From assembly GCA_943355005.1 (NCBI GenBank), contig CALRDV010000009.1:1-52306 (forward strand): a stretch of DNA of 52,306 nt, read 5' to 3'. Below, in pieces: positions 18,884-28,195 of the stretch; position 1 is the first letter of the stretch; the number at the start of each line of letters is the position of its first letter. The notes under the pieces are model-generated. The model was not told the DNA's origin, did not search any database, and saw only the letters and a list, made by a program, of their open reading frames with translations. Both the position numbers and the translations under genes were made by a program. This DNA is from Patescibacteria group bacterium. GTDB taxonomy: Bacteria; Patescibacteriota; Microgenomatia; UBA1400; MFAQ01.

Positions 18884-19504
18884 TCAAATATACTTCCTTA
18901 TTACCCCCACACACTTACCTTGAACTTTTACGTTTATCGCAAAAATAGGGGACATGGAAGAGTTCGCGGGTTCAAGTCGGACTCTGGTTCTTTCTCTGAA
19001 AAACCTCTTTAGCGTTGCCAACCCATTTTCCAGTAAAGCTACTACAATATCTCCGTCCTTTACGGCTCCAATTTCACATTCCTCAATCAGAACATAGTCG
19101 TGGTCAAAGATACCTTCCTCAATCATGGAGTCGCCTTTCACTTGAAGCACAAAAGCTCTTTTCTTACCCGAAACCATTGATGCTGAAACCTTCATGGTGG
19201 CGTTTGGATCGGTAAGTGGCTCGATCGGGCGTCCGGCGGCGATGTAGCCCAATATAGGAAGCTCCAGGGATGCCATTTCCACGCTTGGTCTGTCTACTAC
19301 CTCAATTCCACGGATAGCTCCCTCAAATTTACGGATGATACCCTTCTTCTCCAACGCTTGAAGGTGCTCATGGATCGTAGCAAGGGAAGAAACTCCGATA
19401 GCATCAGCGATTTCCGAAAGAGTAGGGGAGTACCCCGACTTCTGGATGAACTGAGAAATAAACTCTACGATTTGTCTTTGTCTTTTGTATAGTGTTACGG
19501 CCAT
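18884..19504 (-). CDS. lexA: LexA SOS repressor
   Basis: A repressor of DNA-damage genes that cleaves itself when RecA filaments form. The 206-aa product has an N-terminal winged helix (RQRQIVEFISQFIQKSGYSPTLSEIADAIG, recognition helix near residues 40-52) and a C-terminal S24 peptidase domain. All functional residues are present: cleavage bond Ala90-Gly91 (GYIAAGRPIEP), catalytic Ser126 (GDSMIEEG) and Lys166 (ATLKRFF). I start at ATG 19504 (MAVTLYKRQR) because a -10 box ends 6 nt upstream; a TTG at 19525 in frame precedes that box. A candidate operator lies between its -35 and -10, which fits autorepression. uvrB and uvrA are close by. Confidence 0.96.
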   Translation of the reverse strand: MAVTLYKRQRQIVEFISQFIQKSGYSPTLSEIADAIGVSSLATIHEHLQALEKKGIIRKFEGAIRGIEVVDRPSVEMASLELPILGYIAAGRPIEPLTDPNATMKVSASMVSGKKRAFVLQVKGDSMIEEGIFDHDYVLIEECEIGAVKDGDIVVALLENGLATLKRFFRERTRVRLEPANSSMSPIFAINVKVQGKCVGVIRKYI

Positions 19505-19510
19505 AGATTC

Positions 19511-19539
19511 ATTATTACCAAACAATACCCAAATGTCAA
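19511..19539 (-). promoter_or_regulatory. lexA promoter
   Basis: On the complement: TTGACA (19534-19539), then AATAAT (19511-19516) after a 17-nt spacer, and 6 nt to the lexA ATG. The transcript should be leaderless. Confidence 0.7.
19517..19536 (-). promoter_or_regulatory. Candidate LexA operator at lexA
   Basis: The complement reads ACATTTGGGTATTGTTTGGT. It matches the uvrA upstream element (25231-25250) at 16 of 20 positions. It contains a GGGT/TGGT direct repeat 10 bp apart and fills the space between the -35 and -10 of lexA, as expected of a repressor site. Confidence 0.5.
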
Positions 19540-19565
19540 CTAATAAAACCCAAAGGTTCTGGTTA

Positions 19566-19574
19566 TGATAATAT
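19566..19574 (+). promoter_or_regulatory. Extended -10 of the zinc-ribbon gene
   Basis: TGATAATAT. Transcription would start near 19581, giving a short leader with GGAGG (19593-19597) 7 nt before the ATG. Confidence 0.5.
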
Positions 19575-19604
19575 ACCTCGTATTCTTACTCAGGAGGCAC
19601 CTTT

Positions 19605-19934
19605 ATGAAATCATGTCCGAATTGTGACACCAAATGCCCACAGAACTCGAGATTTTGCCATATGTGTGGTCACGCCTTGTTGGGAAATCTTGTAATTGTT
19701 TATGCCGTGAAAGGTAGTGGCTCAAAGTACATTTTAAAAGGTAACAGACAGAAAAATATGAAGACGTTCCTGGAATACAACGATGAAGTATTCGAAACTC
19801 CAGGGGCTATCATTATTAAATGTTTTGAGCAGGATCTCCAAAATGGTGAACCGTTCATACCCAATCAAATATTTCTCGCCAGCGCTCATAGTCCGGTGGA
19901 GATAAAAAGCTTCGAAATTGAATTCATAAAATAG
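19605..19934 (+). CDS. Small zinc-ribbon protein, unknown function
   Basis: A 109-aa protein. The N-terminus is a zinc ribbon with Cys4, Cys7, Cys18 and Cys21 (CPNC...FCHMCG). The remainder looks beta-rich and has no family I recognise. The start is firm (GGAGG with 7-nt spacing). It is divergent from lexA, which puts the lexA operator about 30 bp from its own -10, so shared regulation is possible. It is closed by a terminator just before uvrB. Zinc ribbons of this type are found in nucleic-acid-binding and membrane-associated proteins alike, so no role is assigned. Confidence 0.75.
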   Translation: MKSCPNCDTKCPQNSRFCHMCGHALLGNLVIVYAVKGSGSKYILKGNRQKNMKTFLEYNDEVFETPGAIIIKCFEQDLQNGEPFIPNQIFLASAHSPVEIKSFEIEFIK

Positions 19935-19940
19935 GATCAT

Positions 19941-19962
19941 CCCGGGAATACCCGGGTTTTTT
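19941..19962 (+). terminator. Rho-independent terminator before uvrB
   Basis: CCCGGG-AATA-CCCGGG followed by TTTTTT. The uvrB -10 begins only two bases later. The hairpin also contains GGGTATT-N3-GGG on its complement, resembling the lexA/uvrA element, though the hairpin alone explains it. Confidence 0.8.
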
Positions 19963-19963
19963 G

Positions 19964-19972
19964 TGAGAAAAT
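19964..19972 (+). promoter_or_regulatory. Extended -10 of uvrB, leaderless arrangement
   Basis: TGAGAAAAT, ending 7 nt before the uvrB ATG. No Shine-Dalgarno. Confidence 0.45.
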
Positions 19973-19979
19973 AGACCAG

Positions 19980-22028
19980 ATGGACTTCCAACTCGAATCT
20001 ACCTACAAACCCACAGGGGACCAGCCAAATGCGATAGAAAAGCTGGCAATCTCTATAGATCAGCAGAACCCACACCAGACATTGGTGGGCGTCACCGGTA
20101 GTGGCAAAACCTTCACCATCGCCAATGTCATCCAAAAAACTCAGCTTCCAACACTGGTCATGTGTCACAACAAGACCTTGGCATCTCAGCTCTATCAAGA
20201 ATTCCGCGACTTCTTTCCTCACAATGCCGTTTCTTACTTTGTTTCTTACTACGATTACTACCAGCCGGAAGCCTACATTCCTCAGACGGATACCTATATC
20301 GAGAAAGAAGCAGACATTAATCCCGAGATCGATAAATTCCGCTTAACTACGACTGCCAATTTACTTTCCCGTCCCGACAGTATCGTTGTTGCTTCTGTTT
20401 CTTGTATTTACAATATCGGCTCCCCTCTTGATCAAGAAAAAAATCAACTCCCTCTCGCTAGGGGGCAGGTCATTTCCCGGGATACCGTTCTCATGCGACT
20501 CTCAGACCTGCAATATATGCGCACCAACGCCGAACTAGTCCGAGGCATGTACCGCGCCGTAGGCAACTCTGTTCAGCTTTTTCCTTCCTACAAAGACGTC
20601 ATTATTTCCATGCAGTTCGACGACACCACCTTAACAAACATAGAAATTCTTGACCCCTTTAACTACACCAAGATAGAAGACGAAGACTTGGACAACACAG
20701 GCTTCTTAACCATTCACCCGGCCAAACTTTTTATCACCGATCCTCGTAATCAAGGTGAAGCCATCGCAAATATCCGCAGAGATTTGGAAACTCAGGTCAA
20801 GAACTTTAAAGATGCCGGCAAGCTAATTGAAGCTCACCGCATCGAACAAAAAGTTAACTACGACCTCTCCATGTTAGAAGAAGTTGGCTATGTCAGTGGA
20901 ATCGAAAATTATTCCCGATACTTTGACGGCCGAGTTCCCGGATCTGCCCCTTATTCCTTATTTGAATACTTTCACTACAACGCCAAAAAGTTTAATAAAC
21001 CCGGTTTCTTAACTGTCATCGATGAATCCCACATTTCTCTCCCTCAAGTCAGAGGAATGTACAACGGCGACCAAGCCAGGAAAGAAAATCTAATCAACTT
21101 CGGTTTTCGTCTACCCAGCGCCAAGGACAACAGACCTCTAACCTATACCGAGTGGCAGTCCCGGACCCCAATTAAGCTTTACTGTTCCGCTACCCCCACA
21201 GAGCATGAACTTTCACTTTCTCAAACTTCTACCATTCCTACAGTAGCAGAACAGCTTATCCGCCCGACAGGTCTTCTTGACCCTGAAGTTTTTGTCTTCC
21301 CCACCAAGGGCCAGATTGATCACCTTACCCAAGAAGTGATTCGAAGAAAAGAAATAGGTGAAAGAACTTTAATACTAACAATGACAAAAAGAATGGCTGA
21401 AGATTTATCCGACCATTTGAAAGAAAAATATGATTTGAAAGTTGAGTACTTACATTCGGACATTCACACCATGGATCGGGCCGATATTCTGGACAAACTT
21501 CGTCTAGGAGATTTCGATTGTTTAGTGGGTATTAATCTTCTGAGAGAAGGTCTCGATCTCCCGGAAGTTTCACTTGTCGCAATCCTGGACGCCGACAAAG
21601 AAGGCTTTCTCAGGACACCAACTGCCCTTATACAGACCATGGGGCGTGCAGCTCGCCATGTCAACGGCCGTGTTTACCTTTATGCCGACAGGATTTCCAA
21701 CTCCATGAAGATCGCCATGGACGAAACTCTCCGTCGTCGCAAAATCCAAATGGATTACAACACGGAACACGGCCAATCTCCGGTAGGAATCAATAAACCC
21801 ATTAGAGATAGATTGTTCAAAGCCGAAAGTACTACACCTCTACCTAAGATTAAGGAGTTAGCTGAGCATGGCTGGATGGAGATAGAAGATGTAAACGCTG
21901 AAGCTCTCACACCTCAAAAGAAAAAGATTCTTGTGGTCAAACTTAAGAAAATGATGAACCAAGCCGCCAACTCCTGGAACTTCGAGCTCGCCGCTCGCTA
22001 CCGCGACACGATCAAAAAGCTCCAATAA
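19980..22028 (+). CDS. uvrB: Excinuclease ABC subunit B
   Basis: The damage-verifying helicase-like subunit of nucleotide excision repair. It is loaded by UvrA and then recruits UvrC. At 682 aa it is of normal length. Motifs: Walker A GVTGSGKTFT (about residues 38-46), VMCHNKTLASQL, the beta-hairpin region YYDYYQPEAYIPQTDTYIEKE, VIDESHISLPQVRGMYNGD (motif II), the C-terminal helicase motifs (GINLLREGLDLPEVSLVAILDADKEGFLR, QTMGRAARH) and the C-terminal UVR motif (NSWNFELAARYRDTI) that binds UvrC. Start MDFQLESTYKPTGDQP is typical. It lies next to lexA, and with uvrA and uvrC in the same 12 kb the complete excinuclease is local. Confidence 0.97.
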   Translation: MDFQLESTYKPTGDQPNAIEKLAISIDQQNPHQTLVGVTGSGKTFTIANVIQKTQLPTLVMCHNKTLASQLYQEFRDFFPHNAVSYFVSYYDYYQPEAYIPQTDTYIEKEADINPEIDKFRLTTTANLLSRPDSIVVASVSCIYNIGSPLDQEKNQLPLARGQVISRDTVLMRLSDLQYMRTNAELVRGMYRAVGNSVQLFPSYKDVIISMQFDDTTLTNIEILDPFNYTKIEDEDLDNTGFLTIHPAKLFITDPRNQGEAIANIRRDLETQVKNFKDAGKLIEAHRIEQKVNYDLSMLEEVGYVSGIENYSRYFDGRVPGSAPYSLFEYFHYNAKKFNKPGFLTVIDESHISLPQVRGMYNGDQARKENLINFGFRLPSAKDNRPLTYTEWQSRTPIKLYCSATPTEHELSLSQTSTIPTVAEQLIRPTGLLDPEVFVFPTKGQIDHLTQEVIRRKEIGERTLILTMTKRMAEDLSDHLKEKYDLKVEYLHSDIHTMDRADILDKLRLGDFDCLVGINLLREGLDLPEVSLVAILDADKEGFLRTPTALIQTMGRAARHVNGRVYLYADRISNSMKIAMDETLRRRKIQMDYNTEHGQSPVGINKPIRDRLFKAESTTPLPKIKELAEHGWMEIEDVNAEALTPQKKKILVVKLKKMMNQAANSWNFELAARYRDTIKKLQ

Positions 22029-22066
22029 GTTTACGGCCAAAGATGGACATTTTAGCTTCCTAAGGA

Positions 22067-22072
22067 TAGTAT
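22067..22072 (+). promoter_or_regulatory. -10 hexamer of the nuclease-like orphan
   Basis: TAGTAT, with 8 nt (AGACCTAC) to the ATG. uvrA (AGACAGTC) and uvrB (AGACCAG) have the same AGAC start after the hexamer. Confidence 0.4.
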
Positions 22073-22080
22073 AGACCTAC

Positions 22081-23580
22081 ATGGAAATCACATTACAGGG
22101 AATAGGTAAAGAAGCAGAAGATCAAGTTGAACCAATTATTTCAGCCACAGAGAAAAAAAATCAAGAACTGGAGTGGGAATACAATCGAAGTTTAGATTTA
22201 GCTACAAAAAATACATTGGAACAAGCAGGGGAAGTGTCAAATAGTAATGGATTTTTTGATAAACGAAAGTTTGACTTTGTTAGAAGAAACCTAAAGCTAA
22301 GAACTAGCCCAAAATTTCAAGGAAGGCAAAGTAAGCTTGTAGACTCTTCACATTCAGAAGTTATGGCAAATTTACTGAACGCTAACGTTTACGTTTATAG
22401 TGAAACCAGAAAAGAGACTCTAGATAAATTCGTGGTAGCAGAACATGTGGAGAGAATTGGTTCAAAGAAAGATAAAAGAATTTTTCAAATTTATTACGGT
22501 GCCGGGAATTCGACAGAAGATTTAGAGAATTTGAATGAATTATTATCAGACCCCGAAGAGTTTTTAAATTCAAATTTAGGGTACAGAAAAGCTAAATCTG
22601 AAGATTGGAGTATTACTATCAATGTGCTTTACCCTGATGATATACCCGCAAACGAGAAGGTTGTAAAACATCTAAATGAACAGGAGTCGAAAATTAACTC
22701 AGAATCTAGCGGAATACTCATAAAATATAAATTAGATAATATTCCGTTTGACGCTGATAAAGTAAAAGTACTAGATCGGTTGATTGAAAAAAATAAAAAG
22801 GAGGTAACCAGACATCCCTCTGAGCTTTTTTTAGAAGTTAGAGAAGTGACTATTAAAAACTTATTAACTCAAATAACCTCTGAGCTACCAGAAAATTCTG
22901 CTTTATTGAAATTAATTAAAACTGATTTTGATTTTGTGGTCAAACAGGTTTATGAAAGCATCAAGAATTATCACAGTGGTAATTCAGAAGCTGCAATGGG
23001 TTATATGTTTGAAGCTGCTGTCGCAATAGAAATGAGAGATGGAGTGCTTGATGACACACTTTCAGAGATGTTTTGGCAAATTGCCCACAATAACAAAAAA
23101 GAAGTTATAGATTTATCAAGTGAGGACTTTCGGGCATTAAATAAAGAGTATCAAGAATTTATGGCTAGTAAGTGGCATGGTCATGGTGACTTTATTATCA
23201 CGGATGATGATATAGCGGATGGGAAAAAAGTCAGAAAAATTTCTGCCTTAATTGAATGCAAGTCCTCTTCTTCTGAAAGTATTCCTGAGTACGTTAGAAA
23301 TCAAATTGTAGGTGAAGTGGGAGATTTGGAAGTATTTGTTGAAAAACACAACAAAACTAATCGGGAAAAAATAGCCATGCTTCCGATTAAAGACATTAAA
23401 GTCATATTAATTAAACCTTTACCGAAAGGAGTCGAAAACAAACCATCTAATCGTACCGGAAAGCAAACCTTTGTTGGATTTAATTCTGTAGCAATTCTAA
23501 GGTCAGCAATTAGCGAAGAAGATATAGAAATAGTTAGAAAGTATATGGGAACAATTATTGAAAATACCCACAAGACATAA
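22081..23580 (+). CDS. Orphan protein with PD-(D/E)XK nuclease-like C-terminal region
   Basis: A 499-aa soluble protein; no known family recognised over its length. The N-terminal half is charged and helical. The C-terminal half carries a pattern typical of PD-(D/E)XK nucleases: FEAAVAIE (Glu311, Glu317), then HGDFII (Asp370), then ALIECKS (Glu392-Cys-Lys394), followed by a long helix. Such cores occur in restriction enzymes, repair nucleases and phage defence proteins. The 22-residue gap between Asp370 and Glu392 is long but within what the superfamily allows. Base composition is more AT-rich than the flanking repair genes, suggesting transfer. Alternative: an inactive relative or chance motif. 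Confidence 0.6.
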   Translation: MEITLQGIGKEAEDQVEPIISATEKKNQELEWEYNRSLDLATKNTLEQAGEVSNSNGFFDKRKFDFVRRNLKLRTSPKFQGRQSKLVDSSHSEVMANLLNANVYVYSETRKETLDKFVVAEHVERIGSKKDKRIFQIYYGAGNSTEDLENLNELLSDPEEFLNSNLGYRKAKSEDWSITINVLYPDDIPANEKVVKHLNEQESKINSESSGILIKYKLDNIPFDADKVKVLDRLIEKNKKEVTRHPSELFLEVREVTIKNLLTQITSELPENSALLKLIKTDFDFVVKQVYESIKNYHSGNSEAAMGYMFEAAVAIEMRDGVLDDTLSEMFWQIAHNNKKEVIDLSSEDFRALNKEYQEFMASKWHGHGDFIITDDDIADGKKVRKISALIECKSSSSESIPEYVRNQIVGEVGDLEVFVEKHNKTNREKIAMLPIKDIKVILIKPLPKGVENKPSNRTGKQTFVGFNSVAILRSAISEEDIEIVRKYMGTIIENTHKT

Positions 23581-23591
23581 TTAAATAGTCA

Positions 23592-24131
23592 ATGAACAAA
23601 AGCAAGCCAGTTAGTTCTACCTGGACCTCTCCGGATGATGGTACTGTTGTTAAGTTTACTTGGTTACCAGGAGATAATATTTCGATTTACACTCCCTACA
23701 CCCAGTGCTATGGTGTCTGCTTTAATACCGAAGGAAAAATGCTTATTCAAAGGGTGGAAGATTCCGACTGGTGTCTATCTGGAGGTACAGTCGAGGAAGG
23801 CGAAACAGCGGAGCAAACGTTACGTCGCGAGATGCTGGAAGAAACAGATGTCACTATAAAAAACATTATTCTATTGGGTGGTCAAGAAGTTTCTTTTCCG
23901 AATGGTCACAATTTGCATCCCAAAAGAGGTGAAGGTGATCTTTTCTATCAGCTGCGATATTATTGCGAATTGGACGAATTGCTTCCTCAAACCCCGGACC
24001 CGGACAAGGGCAAAATTCATGACCGTCTTTTTGTCGACCCGGCTGAAATTACCAAATACTTCGATTGGGGTGCGACGGGTGCCGCCATCTTCGCGCAGGC
24101 CACAGCTTTATATAATAAACTTCACCCCTAA
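23592..24131 (+). CDS. NUDIX hydrolase
   Basis: A 179-aa hydrolase of the NUDIX superfamily, which cleaves nucleoside diphosphates linked to another moiety, often for nucleotide clean-up. The NUDIX box is complete in its metal-binding part: GGTVEEGETAEQTLRREMLEE, with Thr-Asp where the consensus has x-Gly. The N-terminal strands (CYGVCFNTEGKMLIQRV) and the end (DRLFVDPAEITKYFDW) fit the fold. The substrate cannot be inferred. It starts 11 nt after the nuclease-like gene with no Shine-Dalgarno and may be read from that gene's transcript. Confidence 0.85.
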   Translation: MNKSKPVSSTWTSPDDGTVVKFTWLPGDNISIYTPYTQCYGVCFNTEGKMLIQRVEDSDWCLSGGTVEEGETAEQTLRREMLEETDVTIKNIILLGGQEVSFPNGHNLHPKRGEGDLFYQLRYYCELDELLPQTPDPDKGKIHDRLFVDPAEITKYFDWGATGAAIFAQATALYNKLHP

Positions 24132-24132
24132 C

Positions 24133-24157
24133 ACCTGCAAGGAGAGTCCTTGCAGGT
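24133..24157. terminator. Strong stem-loop after the NUDIX gene
   Basis: An 11-bp perfect stem ACCTGCAAGGA / TCCTTGCAGGT with loop GAG. No U tract follows, so it may be an end-stabilising hairpin rather than a classic terminator. Confidence 0.5.
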
Positions 24158-24168
24158 CTCACTCCACC

Positions 24169-24198
24169 CGTCATTGCGAGCGGAGCGCGGCAATCCAG
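24169..24198. repeat. Palindromic repeat family A, copy 2 (short form)
   Basis: CGTCATTGCGAGCGGAGCGC continues into GGCAATCCAG: the simplest copy of family A. The TATAAT of the following GNAT gene begins 4 nt after it. Confidence 0.8.
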
Positions 24199-24201
24199 GC
24201 A

Positions 24202-24207
24202 TATAAT
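24202..24207 (+). promoter_or_regulatory. -10 hexamer of the GNAT gene, leaderless arrangement
   Basis: A perfect TATAAT with 6 nt (ATAAAC) to the ATG at 24214, directly after a palindromic repeat. Confidence 0.6.
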
Positions 24208-24213
24208 ATAAAC

Positions 24214-24699
24214 ATGACCGATACCGATACAAAAATCATCAAACTCGACTCTAAAGATTGGCAAAAATACAAAGAAATTAGACTTGAGTCGCTTAGGATG
24301 GAGCCACAAGCCTTTAATTCCAAGTATGCCGAAATCTTAAACAAACCTGACCAATATTGGATGGACGAACTATTAGACCCAGACAAACTATATTTATTTG
24401 CCGAGGTTGAAGGCGAAATCGTTGGCACTATGAATGCTTCATTTAACGAAAATAATATAAAAAACGAAGCGGTCATTCACGGCGCCTATGTAAATATTAC
24501 TCATAGACGAAAGGGGATAGGTCAACAGCTTCTTACAGCACTTTTGGATGAAGCCAAACTGCATCCTGTAGTCAAAATAGCCAAGCTTTGGGTAAAAGGC
24601 TCGCAAATCAAAGCCCGCAAGCTTTACGAATCCATGGGTTTTTCAGTCACTGGCAAAGACGGAGAAAACACCCTAGTGATGGAAAAATCTCTAGTCTAG
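24214..24699 (+). CDS. GNAT family N-acetyltransferase
   Basis: A 161-aa acetyltransferase that transfers acetyl from acetyl-CoA to an amine of unknown identity. The GNAT core is clear: N-terminal strand and helix (KIIKLDSKDWQKYKEIRLESL), strand 4 (VIHGAYVNITHRRKGIGQQLLTALLDEA, with the CoA loop RRKGIG), and C-terminal ARKLYESMGF. The open frame extends further upstream to 23878, but that part overlaps the NUDIX gene in another frame. ATG 24214 follows a perfect -10 by 6 nt, so it is the likely start. It is closed by a terminator shared with the opposing gene. Confidence 0.88.
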   Translation: MTDTDTKIIKLDSKDWQKYKEIRLESLRMEPQAFNSKYAEILNKPDQYWMDELLDPDKLYLFAEVEGEIVGTMNASFNENNIKNEAVIHGAYVNITHRRKGIGQQLLTALLDEAKLHPVVKIAKLWVKGSQIKARKLYESMGFSVTGKDGENTLVMEKSLV

Positions 24700-24708
24700 A
24701 AAAATAAA

Positions 24709-24730
24709 ACCCCCTAATAAATTAGGGGGT
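24709..24730. terminator. Bidirectional terminator
   Basis: ACCCCCTAAT / ATTAGGGGGT with a 2-nt loop between two convergent genes. A-rich and T-containing tracts flank it on both sides. Confidence 0.8.
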
Positions 24731-24737
24731 ACTTTCG

Positions 24738-25094
24738 TTATTGAGCTCCAGACTTGCGAGGTACGGAGTGACTGGTTCTTGATCCGATCACGCCTTCAAT
24801 CTTCTCATCTTTGATGAATTGAAGAATTCCTTCTCCTGGGAACTCGCATGGTAAAACTTGGTAGATCTTAATTACACTTAAGTGATCGAAACATAAGGTA
24901 TCAAATAGACACACTGCATGGTTTATCCTGCCAAGCCAACTGACTGAAGTCGTACGTGGTTCGCGCTTCAGTTCAGTGTCTACCTTTACATAGTCCCCGG
25001 CTCGCGGATAAAGCGCTATAGGATCAAGCAGTCCTTCTACGACCTTGAATAATCTTTTTGGTGCTTTTACCACTATCGGTTTAGTTTTACGCAT
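24738..25094 (-). CDS. Small protein of unknown function
   Basis: A 118-aa soluble protein, basic at the N-terminus (MRKTKPIVVKAPKRLFK), with a beta-rich pattern and a C-terminal Ser/Arg-containing tail. I recognise no family. The start is well supported by AAGGAG 7 nt upstream, and TATAAT lies on the complement at 25134-25139. It is a stand-alone gene converging on the GNAT gene. Confidence 0.65.
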   Translation of the reverse strand: MRKTKPIVVKAPKRLFKVVEGLLDPIALYPRAGDYVKVDTELKREPRTTSVSWLGRINHAVCLFDTLCFDHLSVIKIYQVLPCEFPGEGILQFIKDEKIEGVIGSRTSHSVPRKSGAQ

Positions 25095-25133
25095 CGAAAA
25101 GCTCCTTCATATTTTAATGTTGCTGCATCGGGA

Positions 25134-25139
25134 ATTATA
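25134..25139 (-). promoter_or_regulatory. -10 hexamer of the gene at 24738-25094
   Basis: The complement reads TATAAT. The leader is about 35 nt with AAGGAG. Confidence 0.5.
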
Positions 25140-25230
25140 CTACCTAATATCAAGGGATACAAAAGAGACAAGTAATATGTTCGCAGAATATCACAGAATT
25201 ATAAGTTAGTTTGGAATAACATGGCCAATA

Positions 25231-25250
25231 ACATTCGGGTATTTTAGGGT
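25231..25250 (+). promoter_or_regulatory. Candidate LexA operator at uvrA
   Basis: ACATTCGGGTATTTTAGGGT, with a GGGT direct repeat 10 bp apart. It matches the lexA element at 16 of 20 positions and covers the expected -35 region of uvrA (the -10 is 25260-25265). Confidence 0.5.
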
Positions 25251-25259
25251 GAATTGATG

Positions 25260-25265
25260 TAAAAT
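25260..25265 (+). promoter_or_regulatory. -10 hexamer of uvrA
   Basis: TAAAAT, with 8 nt (AGACAGTC) to the ATG. No Shine-Dalgarno. Confidence 0.5.
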
Positions 25266-25273
25266 AGACAGTC

Positions 25274-28195
25274 ATGTCCACCTCTCCATCAACTCATTTA
25301 ATCATCAAGGGAGCACGTCAGCACAATCTCAAGAACGTCAATCTGACTTTGCCAAAGAATAAACTGGTGGTTTTTACAGGGGTCTCCGGATCCGGCAAGT
25401 CCAGCATGGCTCACGACACCATCTATGCAGAAGGCCAGCGTCGCTATGTCGAGTCACTTTCTTCCTACGCCCGCCAGTTTCTGGGGGTCATGGACAAGCC
25501 TGATGTGGATCAGATCGAAGGTCTTTCACCCGCCATCCTCATAGATCAGAAGCAGGGGAGCCACAATCCTCGCAGTACGGTCGGTACCGTTACCGAGATT
25601 TATGACTATCTCCGTCTCCTCTTTGCCCGTATAGGGCACCCTCACTGCCCTCAATGCGGTCGCGAAATCATGCCTCAAGACATCAATCAAATCTACAAAT
25701 CCGTTGTAGACCTCGCCATAAGCCATCCCAGCTACCAAAAGCAAAAAGGTGCTAGGCTTCTGATCTTGGCTCCCATTGTCAAAGGCCAAAAGGGTGAATT
25801 CAAAGAACTTTTTCCTGGCCTGCTCAAGCAAGGTATCCAACAGGTCAGAGTCGATAACAAAATTCTTTCAACTACTTCTACTTTATCTTTATTCAAAAAT
25901 AACCGTCACAGTATCGAAGCTGTAATCGACAAGCTTGTCATTGGCCAAGTTCAGGGAAGTCCGGAGTACGAGAAACAGCGTTTAATTGACTCTCTAGAAC
26001 AAGCACTCAAAATCTCTGACGGTGAAGTTTTTGTCAGCATTGTCTCCGACCCCTCTTTATCTTTTCCCGAAAATCCTGAGCAGATGGAAGACCACTTATT
26101 TTCACAGAAACTAGCCTGTCCTGTCGATAATATTTCTATTCCGGAAATCGAACCAAGATACTTTTCCTTTAATGCACCGGAAGGCGCCTGTCCGGAATGT
26201 ACCGGTCTAGGGACCAAGATGGTCCTCGATACGGATTCGGTTGTTTCTCCCTCACTTAGTCTTCTGGAAGGCGCCATTATTCCTCTTGCATCCCAGTTCG
26301 AGTCGCGCACTTGGCTGGCCAAACTAGTTCTCGAAGCCATGGATTCCATGGGTTTCCCAGGAAACAAACCACTGTTAGACCTTACAGATGAACAAAAAAA
26401 TGCTTTATTCAATGGCACTGGCAAAAAAGTATTTTCCATCAAAGGCATCAACCGTCACGGCAAACATGTTTCCCGAAAAATGACATTTGAAGGTCTGTCT
26501 AAAGAATTCGAAAGACGTTATGAAGAGTCCAGTTCCGAATCATTTAAGGAGGAAGTAGCCAAATATCTCATCCGGAAAACTTGTCCGGTATGTAAGGGAG
26601 CTCGTCTAAAATCCGAAGTTCTTGGTGTTCACGTCGATAATTGCTCTATCAGCGAAGTCACTTCCTGGTCTACTGCTAAGTCCAATCAATTTTTTCAGGA
26701 ACTATTTAACAAGTTAACCTCCACCGAACAACAAATCAGCGAACCAATTGTGAAAGAAATAGGGGACCGGTTAAGTTTTCTCATGTCAGTTGGTCTTGAT
26801 TACATCACATTAGCTAGAGAGTCCGGAACCTTATCAGGGGGAGAGCTCCAGAGAATTCGTCTCGCTAGTCAGATTGGATCTCGTCTTACCGGAATACTTT
26901 ATGTTTTAGACGAACCAACTATTGGTCTCCATCAGCGTGATAATGCCAAATTAATCAAAACATTGCAAGATCTCGTTACTTTGGGAAATTCATTAGTGGT
27001 TGTAGAACACGATCAACAGACCATGGAGAATGCCGATCACATTGTCGAGTTCGGTCCTAAAGCGGGCTATCTTGGTGGAGAAGTAACTTTTGAAGGCACA
27101 GTGGATGAGATGAAGGCGTCGAACTGTTTAACAGGACAGTATTTATCGGGTAGAAAATCAGTGGTCGCCGTAAAACCAAAAGAACCCGTTGAGAGTCCAG
27201 CCTCCATTCGACTTACCGGCTGTACCCATCACAATCTCAAAGATATCGATGTAGATTTTCCTCTAAATAAATTTGTCGCTGTTACTGGTGTCTCCGGTTC
27301 CGGCAAATCATCTCTGGTCGTAGACACTCTTTACGAAGCACTTTCGCAAAACCTTAATCCCATGCACCACAAAGAGGATATCAAATTTGGCACAATTACA
27401 ATTCCTGATGTGGTAAAAAGAGTTTCTTTAATTGATCAAAGTCCTATCGGCAAGACTCCCAGAAGTAATCCCGCTACTTATACCAAAGTCTTCGATTACG
27501 TCCGTCAGCTGTTCTCAAATACTCAAGAGGCTAGATACCGCGGTTACGGACCGGGCCGTTTTAGTTTCAATGTCAAAGGTGGTCGCTGCGAAACTTGTGA
27601 GGGAGATGGACAGCTAAAAATCGAAATGCAATTCCTCGGCGATATCTATATTACTTGCGAAACCTGTAAAGGTACTAGATTTAATGACCCTACTTTGGAA
27701 GTAGAATACAAAGGTAAGAACATTTCTCAAGTCCTAGGAATGACAGTGGATGAAGCTAGTGACTTCTTCCGAAATGTCCCCGCCATTAGCAAGAAAATAG
27801 AAACTATCAAGAAAGTCGGTCTAGGTTACATAAAGTTAGGACAAAGCGCTCCTACTCTTTCCGGCGGAGAAGCTCAAAGAGTCAAGCTTGCCACAGAACT
27901 GGCCAAGACGGGTAGTGGGCACACCATATACATTTTGGATGAACCTACCACAGGACTTCATTTTGAAGATTTAAGTAAACTGGTGCAAACCCTTGTCGAT
28001 TTGGTAAATCAAAATAATACAGTCATAGTTATCGAACACAATCTAGACGTAATCAAAAATGCCGACTATATTATTGACATTGGGCCCGAAGGTGGCGAAG
28101 CTGGTGGTCAGCTAATCGCAAGTGGCACACCTGCCAAAGTTGCAGCCAAATTCGACACTCCCACTGCCCAAGAGTTAAAAAAGTTAGTCTTCTAA
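25274..28195 (+). CDS. uvrA: Excinuclease ABC subunit A
   Basis: The damage-sensing ABC-type ATPase dimer of nucleotide excision repair. At 973 aa it is full length. First Walker A GVSGSGKSS (about residue 36 on), then the zinc site HCPQCGREI, a UvrB-binding region, a second zinc site CPECTGLGTK and CPVCKGARL, the first signature LSGGELQRIRLASQIG with Walker B YVLDEPTIGLH, the second Walker A GVSGSGKSSL, a zinc motif CETCEGDGQLKIEMQFL...CETCKG, and the second signature LSGGEAQRVKLATELA with Walker B YILDEPTTGLHFED. A candidate LexA operator lies upstream. The next gene starts 22 nt after the stop. Confidence 0.97.
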   Translation: MSTSPSTHLIIKGARQHNLKNVNLTLPKNKLVVFTGVSGSGKSSMAHDTIYAEGQRRYVESLSSYARQFLGVMDKPDVDQIEGLSPAILIDQKQGSHNPRSTVGTVTEIYDYLRLLFARIGHPHCPQCGREIMPQDINQIYKSVVDLAISHPSYQKQKGARLLILAPIVKGQKGEFKELFPGLLKQGIQQVRVDNKILSTTSTLSLFKNNRHSIEAVIDKLVIGQVQGSPEYEKQRLIDSLEQALKISDGEVFVSIVSDPSLSFPENPEQMEDHLFSQKLACPVDNISIPEIEPRYFSFNAPEGACPECTGLGTKMVLDTDSVVSPSLSLLEGAIIPLASQFESRTWLAKLVLEAMDSMGFPGNKPLLDLTDEQKNALFNGTGKKVFSIKGINRHGKHVSRKMTFEGLSKEFERRYEESSSESFKEEVAKYLIRKTCPVCKGARLKSEVLGVHVDNCSISEVTSWSTAKSNQFFQELFNKLTSTEQQISEPIVKEIGDRLSFLMSVGLDYITLARESGTLSGGELQRIRLASQIGSRLTGILYVLDEPTIGLHQRDNAKLIKTLQDLVTLGNSLVVVEHDQQTMENADHIVEFGPKAGYLGGEVTFEGTVDEMKASNCLTGQYLSGRKSVVAVKPKEPVESPASIRLTGCTHHNLKDIDVDFPLNKFVAVTGVSGSGKSSLVVDTLYEALSQNLNPMHHKEDIKFGTITIPDVVKRVSLIDQSPIGKTPRSNPATYTKVFDYVRQLFSNTQEARYRGYGPGRFSFNVKGGRCETCEGDGQLKIEMQFLGDIYITCETCKGTRFNDPTLEVEYKGKNISQVLGMTVDEASDFFRNVPAISKKIETIKKVGLGYIKLGQSAPTLSGGEAQRVKLATELAKTGSGHTIYILDEPTTGLHFEDLSKLVQTLVDLVNQNNTVIVIEHNLDVIKNADYIIDIGPEGGEAGGQLIASGTPAKVAAKFDTPTAQELKKLVF

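Follow-up and report, generated by a model that had tools for sequence, protein, structure and literature searches.

The window, a stretch of 52,306 nucleotides, is part of a draft genome of 1.25 Mb; among named organisms, Ca. Collierbacteria (Microgenomates, Patescibacteria) are its nearest relatives. Within it, lexA and uvrA are each preceded by a copy of the same short element, and the following features are used throughout:

18884-19504, minus strand: lexA, with an ATG start at 19504, encoding a LexA DNA-binding domain and an S24 peptidase domain
19511-19539, minus strand: lexA promoter, with TTGACA (19539-19534), a 17-nt spacer and AATAAT (19516-19511), matching 11 of 12 consensus positions in a promoter scan
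19517-19533, minus strand: predicted LexA operator at lexA, TTTGGGTATTGTTTGGT, found in all lexA upstream regions read from the window's family (f1)
19538-19554, minus strand: possible auxiliary LexA site with 2 mismatches, 21 bp upstream of the main lexA site
19605-22028, plus strand: divergent unit of a small zinc-ribbon ORF (19605-19934) and uvrB (19980-22028), sharing its intergenic region with lexA
25234-25250, plus strand: predicted LexA operator at uvrA, TTCGGGTATTTTAGGGT, conserved before uvrA across family f1
25260-25265, plus strand: probable uvrA -10 box TAAAAT, assigned by eye and by conservation (TATAAT in many relatives)
25274-28195, plus strand: uvrA, with UvrA_inter, UvrA_DNA-bind and ABC_tran domains

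The lexA and uvrA promoters

Judged by its sequence, the protein encoded at 18884-19504 is a full LexA of 206 residues. It carries both the PF01726 and PF00717 domains, scores 187.3 bits against TIGR00498 (the NCBIfam lexA model, cut-off 110.95), and has an AAG cleavage site, a GDSM serine, and a TLKRF lysine that align with those of solved LexAs. Its recognition helix, SSLATVHEHL, hardly varies within the order, in keeping with a single stable half-site on the DNA.

At lexA, the half-sites TTTGG (19533-19529) and TTTGG (19522-19518) lie 11 bp apart, and the operator core at 19517-19533 is itself the 17-nt promoter spacer. The preliminary description had a 20-bp element exactly filling this spacer, which is true of the 17-bp core; the 20-bp version extends three bases into the -35 box. 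The site thus lies in lexA's own promoter, as autoregulation would require. Because the start codon is only 7 nt past the AATAAT box, the lexA transcript is probably leaderless. At both lexA and uvrA, the -10 box ends 6 to 8 nt before the start codon (19504-19516 and 25260-25276), and both transcripts may be leaderless. In line with the possible auxiliary site, TTYG pairs at an offset of 21 occur in 6 of 10 lexA upstream regions of the family. As lexA and uvrB are divergent neighbors in several relatives too, the lexA operator may act on uvrB as well.

At uvrA, TTCGG (25234-25238) forms the strong half-site and TAGGG (25245-25249) a weaker one. In the family, a TTYGGGT half-site stands at the matching place in nearly every readable uvrA upstream region and the second half is variable. 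The TAAAAT box was not called by the promoter scan. Relative to this box, placed by eye, the core sits where a -35 element would be, in agreement with the earlier proposal that the element covers the -35 region of uvrA.

The two sites share the consensus TTYGGGTAWTNTNNGGT, and the window holds exactly two perfect copies of it, those at lexA and uvrA, plus the imperfect copy (2 mismatches) at 19538-19554. In the longer form first described, the complement of 19517-19536 (ACATTTGGGTATTGTTTGGT) and 25231-25250 (ACATTCGGGTATTTTAGGGT) are indeed identical at 16 of 20 positions. Without comparison to other genomes, this pair match is suggestive only, because the best 20-mer match between two 100-bp upstream regions reached at least 16 in 6 of 400 dinucleotide shuffles.

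Spacing of the half-sites across the order and beyond

Comparison with other genomes placed the period of the repeat at 11 bp. Among lexA upstream regions from the whole order, same-direction TTYG pairs 11 bp apart occur in 49 of 69 (shuffled mean 1.62, maximum 4), counts that overstate the number of independent events, since a clade's genomes are not independent samples. When only families other than f1 and f11 are considered, YGG pairs at lexA still peak at 11 bp (14 of 25; shuffled mean, 1.93), and outside the window's family an 11-bp TTYG pair precedes uvrA in 5 of 13 cases against a shuffled mean of 0.24. At 26 lexA loci from other Patescibacteria, including Uhr-, Magasanik-, Nomura-, and Gottesmanbacteria, TTCG pairs with the same period (TTCG-N7-TTCG) were found in 14, against a shuffled mean of 0.14, and several of these sites read TTGACATTCGGTTTCTGTTCGG, likewise filling the promoter spacer. 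As a positive control, the method was applied to 39 lexA loci of mixed taxa outside Patescibacteria (among L144-L197), and 10 of them showed GTTC pairs with an 11-bp offset. What carries the argument for an 11-bp period at these predicted operators is that the pairs recur in many families and also in other classes.

The preliminary description had instead read GGGT-type half-sites 10 bp apart. Its literal GGGT and TGGT words are present and they do form a direct repeat, but what is conserved is a period of 11 bp (TTYG-N7-TTYG), not 10. A LexA operator built on a 10-bp repeat of GGGT has some appeal within the window's family: GGT pairs at an offset of 10 appear in 10 of 10 lexA upstream regions, GGGT repeats at exactly 10 bp at uvrA, and self-similarity is 2.43 at 10 bp versus 2.18 at 11 bp, a measure by which the two registers are indistinguishable. 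This 10-bp signal arises because the half-site contains a run of G. Outside the family, the 10-bp register is not enriched, whereas enrichment of TTYG or YGG pairs at 11 bp is seen in several families and extends to other Patescibacteria. We rejected 10 bp as the conserved register, and regard an operator of that form as very improbable.

An inverted-repeat reading of the Firmicutes or Escherichia coli type was also rejected for the window's family. No inverted arrangement of half-sites was found there, and the original choice of a direct repeat over GAAC...GTTC or CTG...CAG was sound. In lexA upstream regions of family f11 (e.g., L020, L022, and L030), the 11-bp direct repeat is accompanied by a TTCGGG 20 bp downstream, and the probable transcription start lies within an inverted TTCGGG-N9-CCCGAA.

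Candidate regulon in Ca. Collierbacteria

In the family, TTTGGGTA(A/T)T(G/A)TTTGGT stands shortly before lexA, except that the site in G015 lies about 100 bp further upstream. Conservation before lexA orthologues had been named at the outset as one of the points on which the proposal would stand or fall, and the element is conserved there. Sites are present in 16 of 16 family genomes, with 116 at no more than 1 mismatch compared to 31 for reversed controls. Because the search pattern was used to gather the family logo, the conservation in its fixed columns comes in part from the pattern itself, and the logo is partly circular; the lexA and uvrA upstream sets were aligned by gene and hence are not circular.

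Pattern searches and chosen stretches of sequence gave five exact copies of the consensus in the window's genome, each 11 to 68 bp upstream of an open reading frame. Two are those at lexA and uvrA; the others stand before a Dam-type methylase gene, a Bro-N gene, and a small ORF that has a Y-family polymerase gene (IMS, IMS_C) behind it, so that the same site stands before other DNA damage genes, namely, uvrA and the Y-family polymerase operon. Allowing up to 2 mismatches gives 60 copies in this genome versus 26 with the reversed pattern, while GGGTNNNNNNGGGT alone gave no signal (13 matches versus 34 reversed controls). Overall, genes downstream of sites include those for IMS/DinB polymerase, Dam, and Bro-N proteins, and relatives add Gp49-like/HTH pairs that resemble toxin-antitoxin operons, RhuM, serine recombinases, and a LAGLIDADG protein. 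A LexA site lies directly before the start codon of many Bro-N genes of the family (L063, L204, L211, and others), and these may be a damage-inducible gene family in Ca. Collierbacteria.

A site before recA is usual for an SOS regulon, though not universal, and a regulon in which recA lacks the tandem site is unusual. The tandem site was not found before recA of relatives, where isolated half-sites are present: single half-sites on the other strand, with CCCRA in the promoter spacer and beside the start codon, 35 to 36 bp apart in seven genomes. Upstream of recA in the family (L219-L231), CCCGA occurs 9 to 12 bp before the start codon in 11 of 13 genomes, and the promoter spacer contains CCCRA, a LexA-like half-site on the opposite strand, in most of the genus. 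A search with PF00154 gave no match in the window's genome (G000), G004, or G007, even at E values up to 10. We do not conclude that recA is absent, because about 14 kb of G007:C1:68000-86000 (L244), adjoining a match to the recA neighborhood, reads N, and rny, the neighbor of recA in G001, is missing too.

A probable direct-repeat LexA operator and its likely role

Together, these comparisons, and not the pair match alone, indicate that the element is very probably the LexA operator (SOS box) in Ca. Collierbacteria and takes the form of a direct repeat, TTYGG-N6-TTTGG, with one turn of the helix (11 bp) from half-site to half-site. Conservation of the site at both lexA and uvrA and the 11-bp repeats found across the order bear out the original idea of a LexA operator of the direct-repeat type. 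That two promoters merely resemble each other, with no regulator involved, is hardly credible: a few of the shuffled pairs do reach a 16-of-20 match, but the family keeps the site at lexA as well as uvrA, and it is enriched over reversed-pattern controls. A different repressor or activator could jointly control lexA, uvrA, and the accessory genes, and many of the targets are mobile-element-like genes of a kind that often have their own regulators. However, no regulator but LexA itself is linked to the site in each lineage read, the site lying in the lexA promoter, and the 11-bp repeat accompanies lexA throughout the order and in other Patescibacteria as well. We consider control by another regulator very unlikely, slightly more so than a LexA operator with a 10-bp repeat.

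The observed sequence, positions, and conservation of the sites, the genes downstream of them, and the domains and catalytic motifs of LexA suggest how such a LexA operator would work. A LexA dimer in which both winged-helix domains point in one direction would bind the direct repeat and block RNA polymerase, at the -35/-10 spacer of lexA and at the -35 region of uvrA. DNA damage would lead to RecA-dependent self-cleavage of LexA at the Ala-Gly bond, as in other bacteria, and cleavage would turn on lexA, uvrA, and the Y-family polymerase operon. Accessory genes for the Dam methylase, Bro-N proteins, toxin-antitoxin-like pairs, RhuM, and the recombinase would also be induced.

An 11-bp direct-repeat LexA box is already known, and what is described here is an extension of a regulon, ordinary in kind. 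The preliminary description had pointed to Alphaproteobacteria as a precedent, and the Caulobacter crescentus box GTTC-N7-GTTC is such a direct repeat with an 11-bp period (PMC9578287, table; PMC8565304). The alphaproteobacterial box and the site predicted here have in common the direct repeat, the period, a LexA repressor, and DNA repair targets, and some Patescibacteria have GTTCGG repeats that contain GTTC-N7-GTTC; in contrast, the half-site here is TTYGG(G), and the window's sites, TTTGG and TTCGG, lack GTTC. The boxes of Firmicutes (CGAAC-N4-GTTCG) and E. coli (TACTG(TA)5CAGTA) are likewise operators of lexA and repair genes (PMC9578287, table), but they are inverted repeats, unlike any arrangement found in the window's family. 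A passage of PMC7739468 counts a 2017 study of the Patescibacteria LexA network (Sanchez-Osuna, Barbe, and Erill; PMID 28618189) among cases of direct-repeat LexA motifs; that study concerns the same superphylum and the same regulator.

Tentatively, and with less than even confidence, we suggest that all Patescibacteria may share one ancestral direct-repeat LexA box, approximately TTCGG-N6-TTCGG, and that the Collierbacteria regulon may have come to exclude recA from the genes with a tandem site and to take in numerous mobile, toxin-antitoxin-like, and Bro-N genes. The predicted operator provides a concrete, testable SOS regulon for uncultured bacteria with reduced genomes and fixes the register of their LexA box at 11 bp. 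It also shows the clade-wide stability of a direct-repeat operator paired with one recognition helix, and which accessory genes would have joined the damage response.
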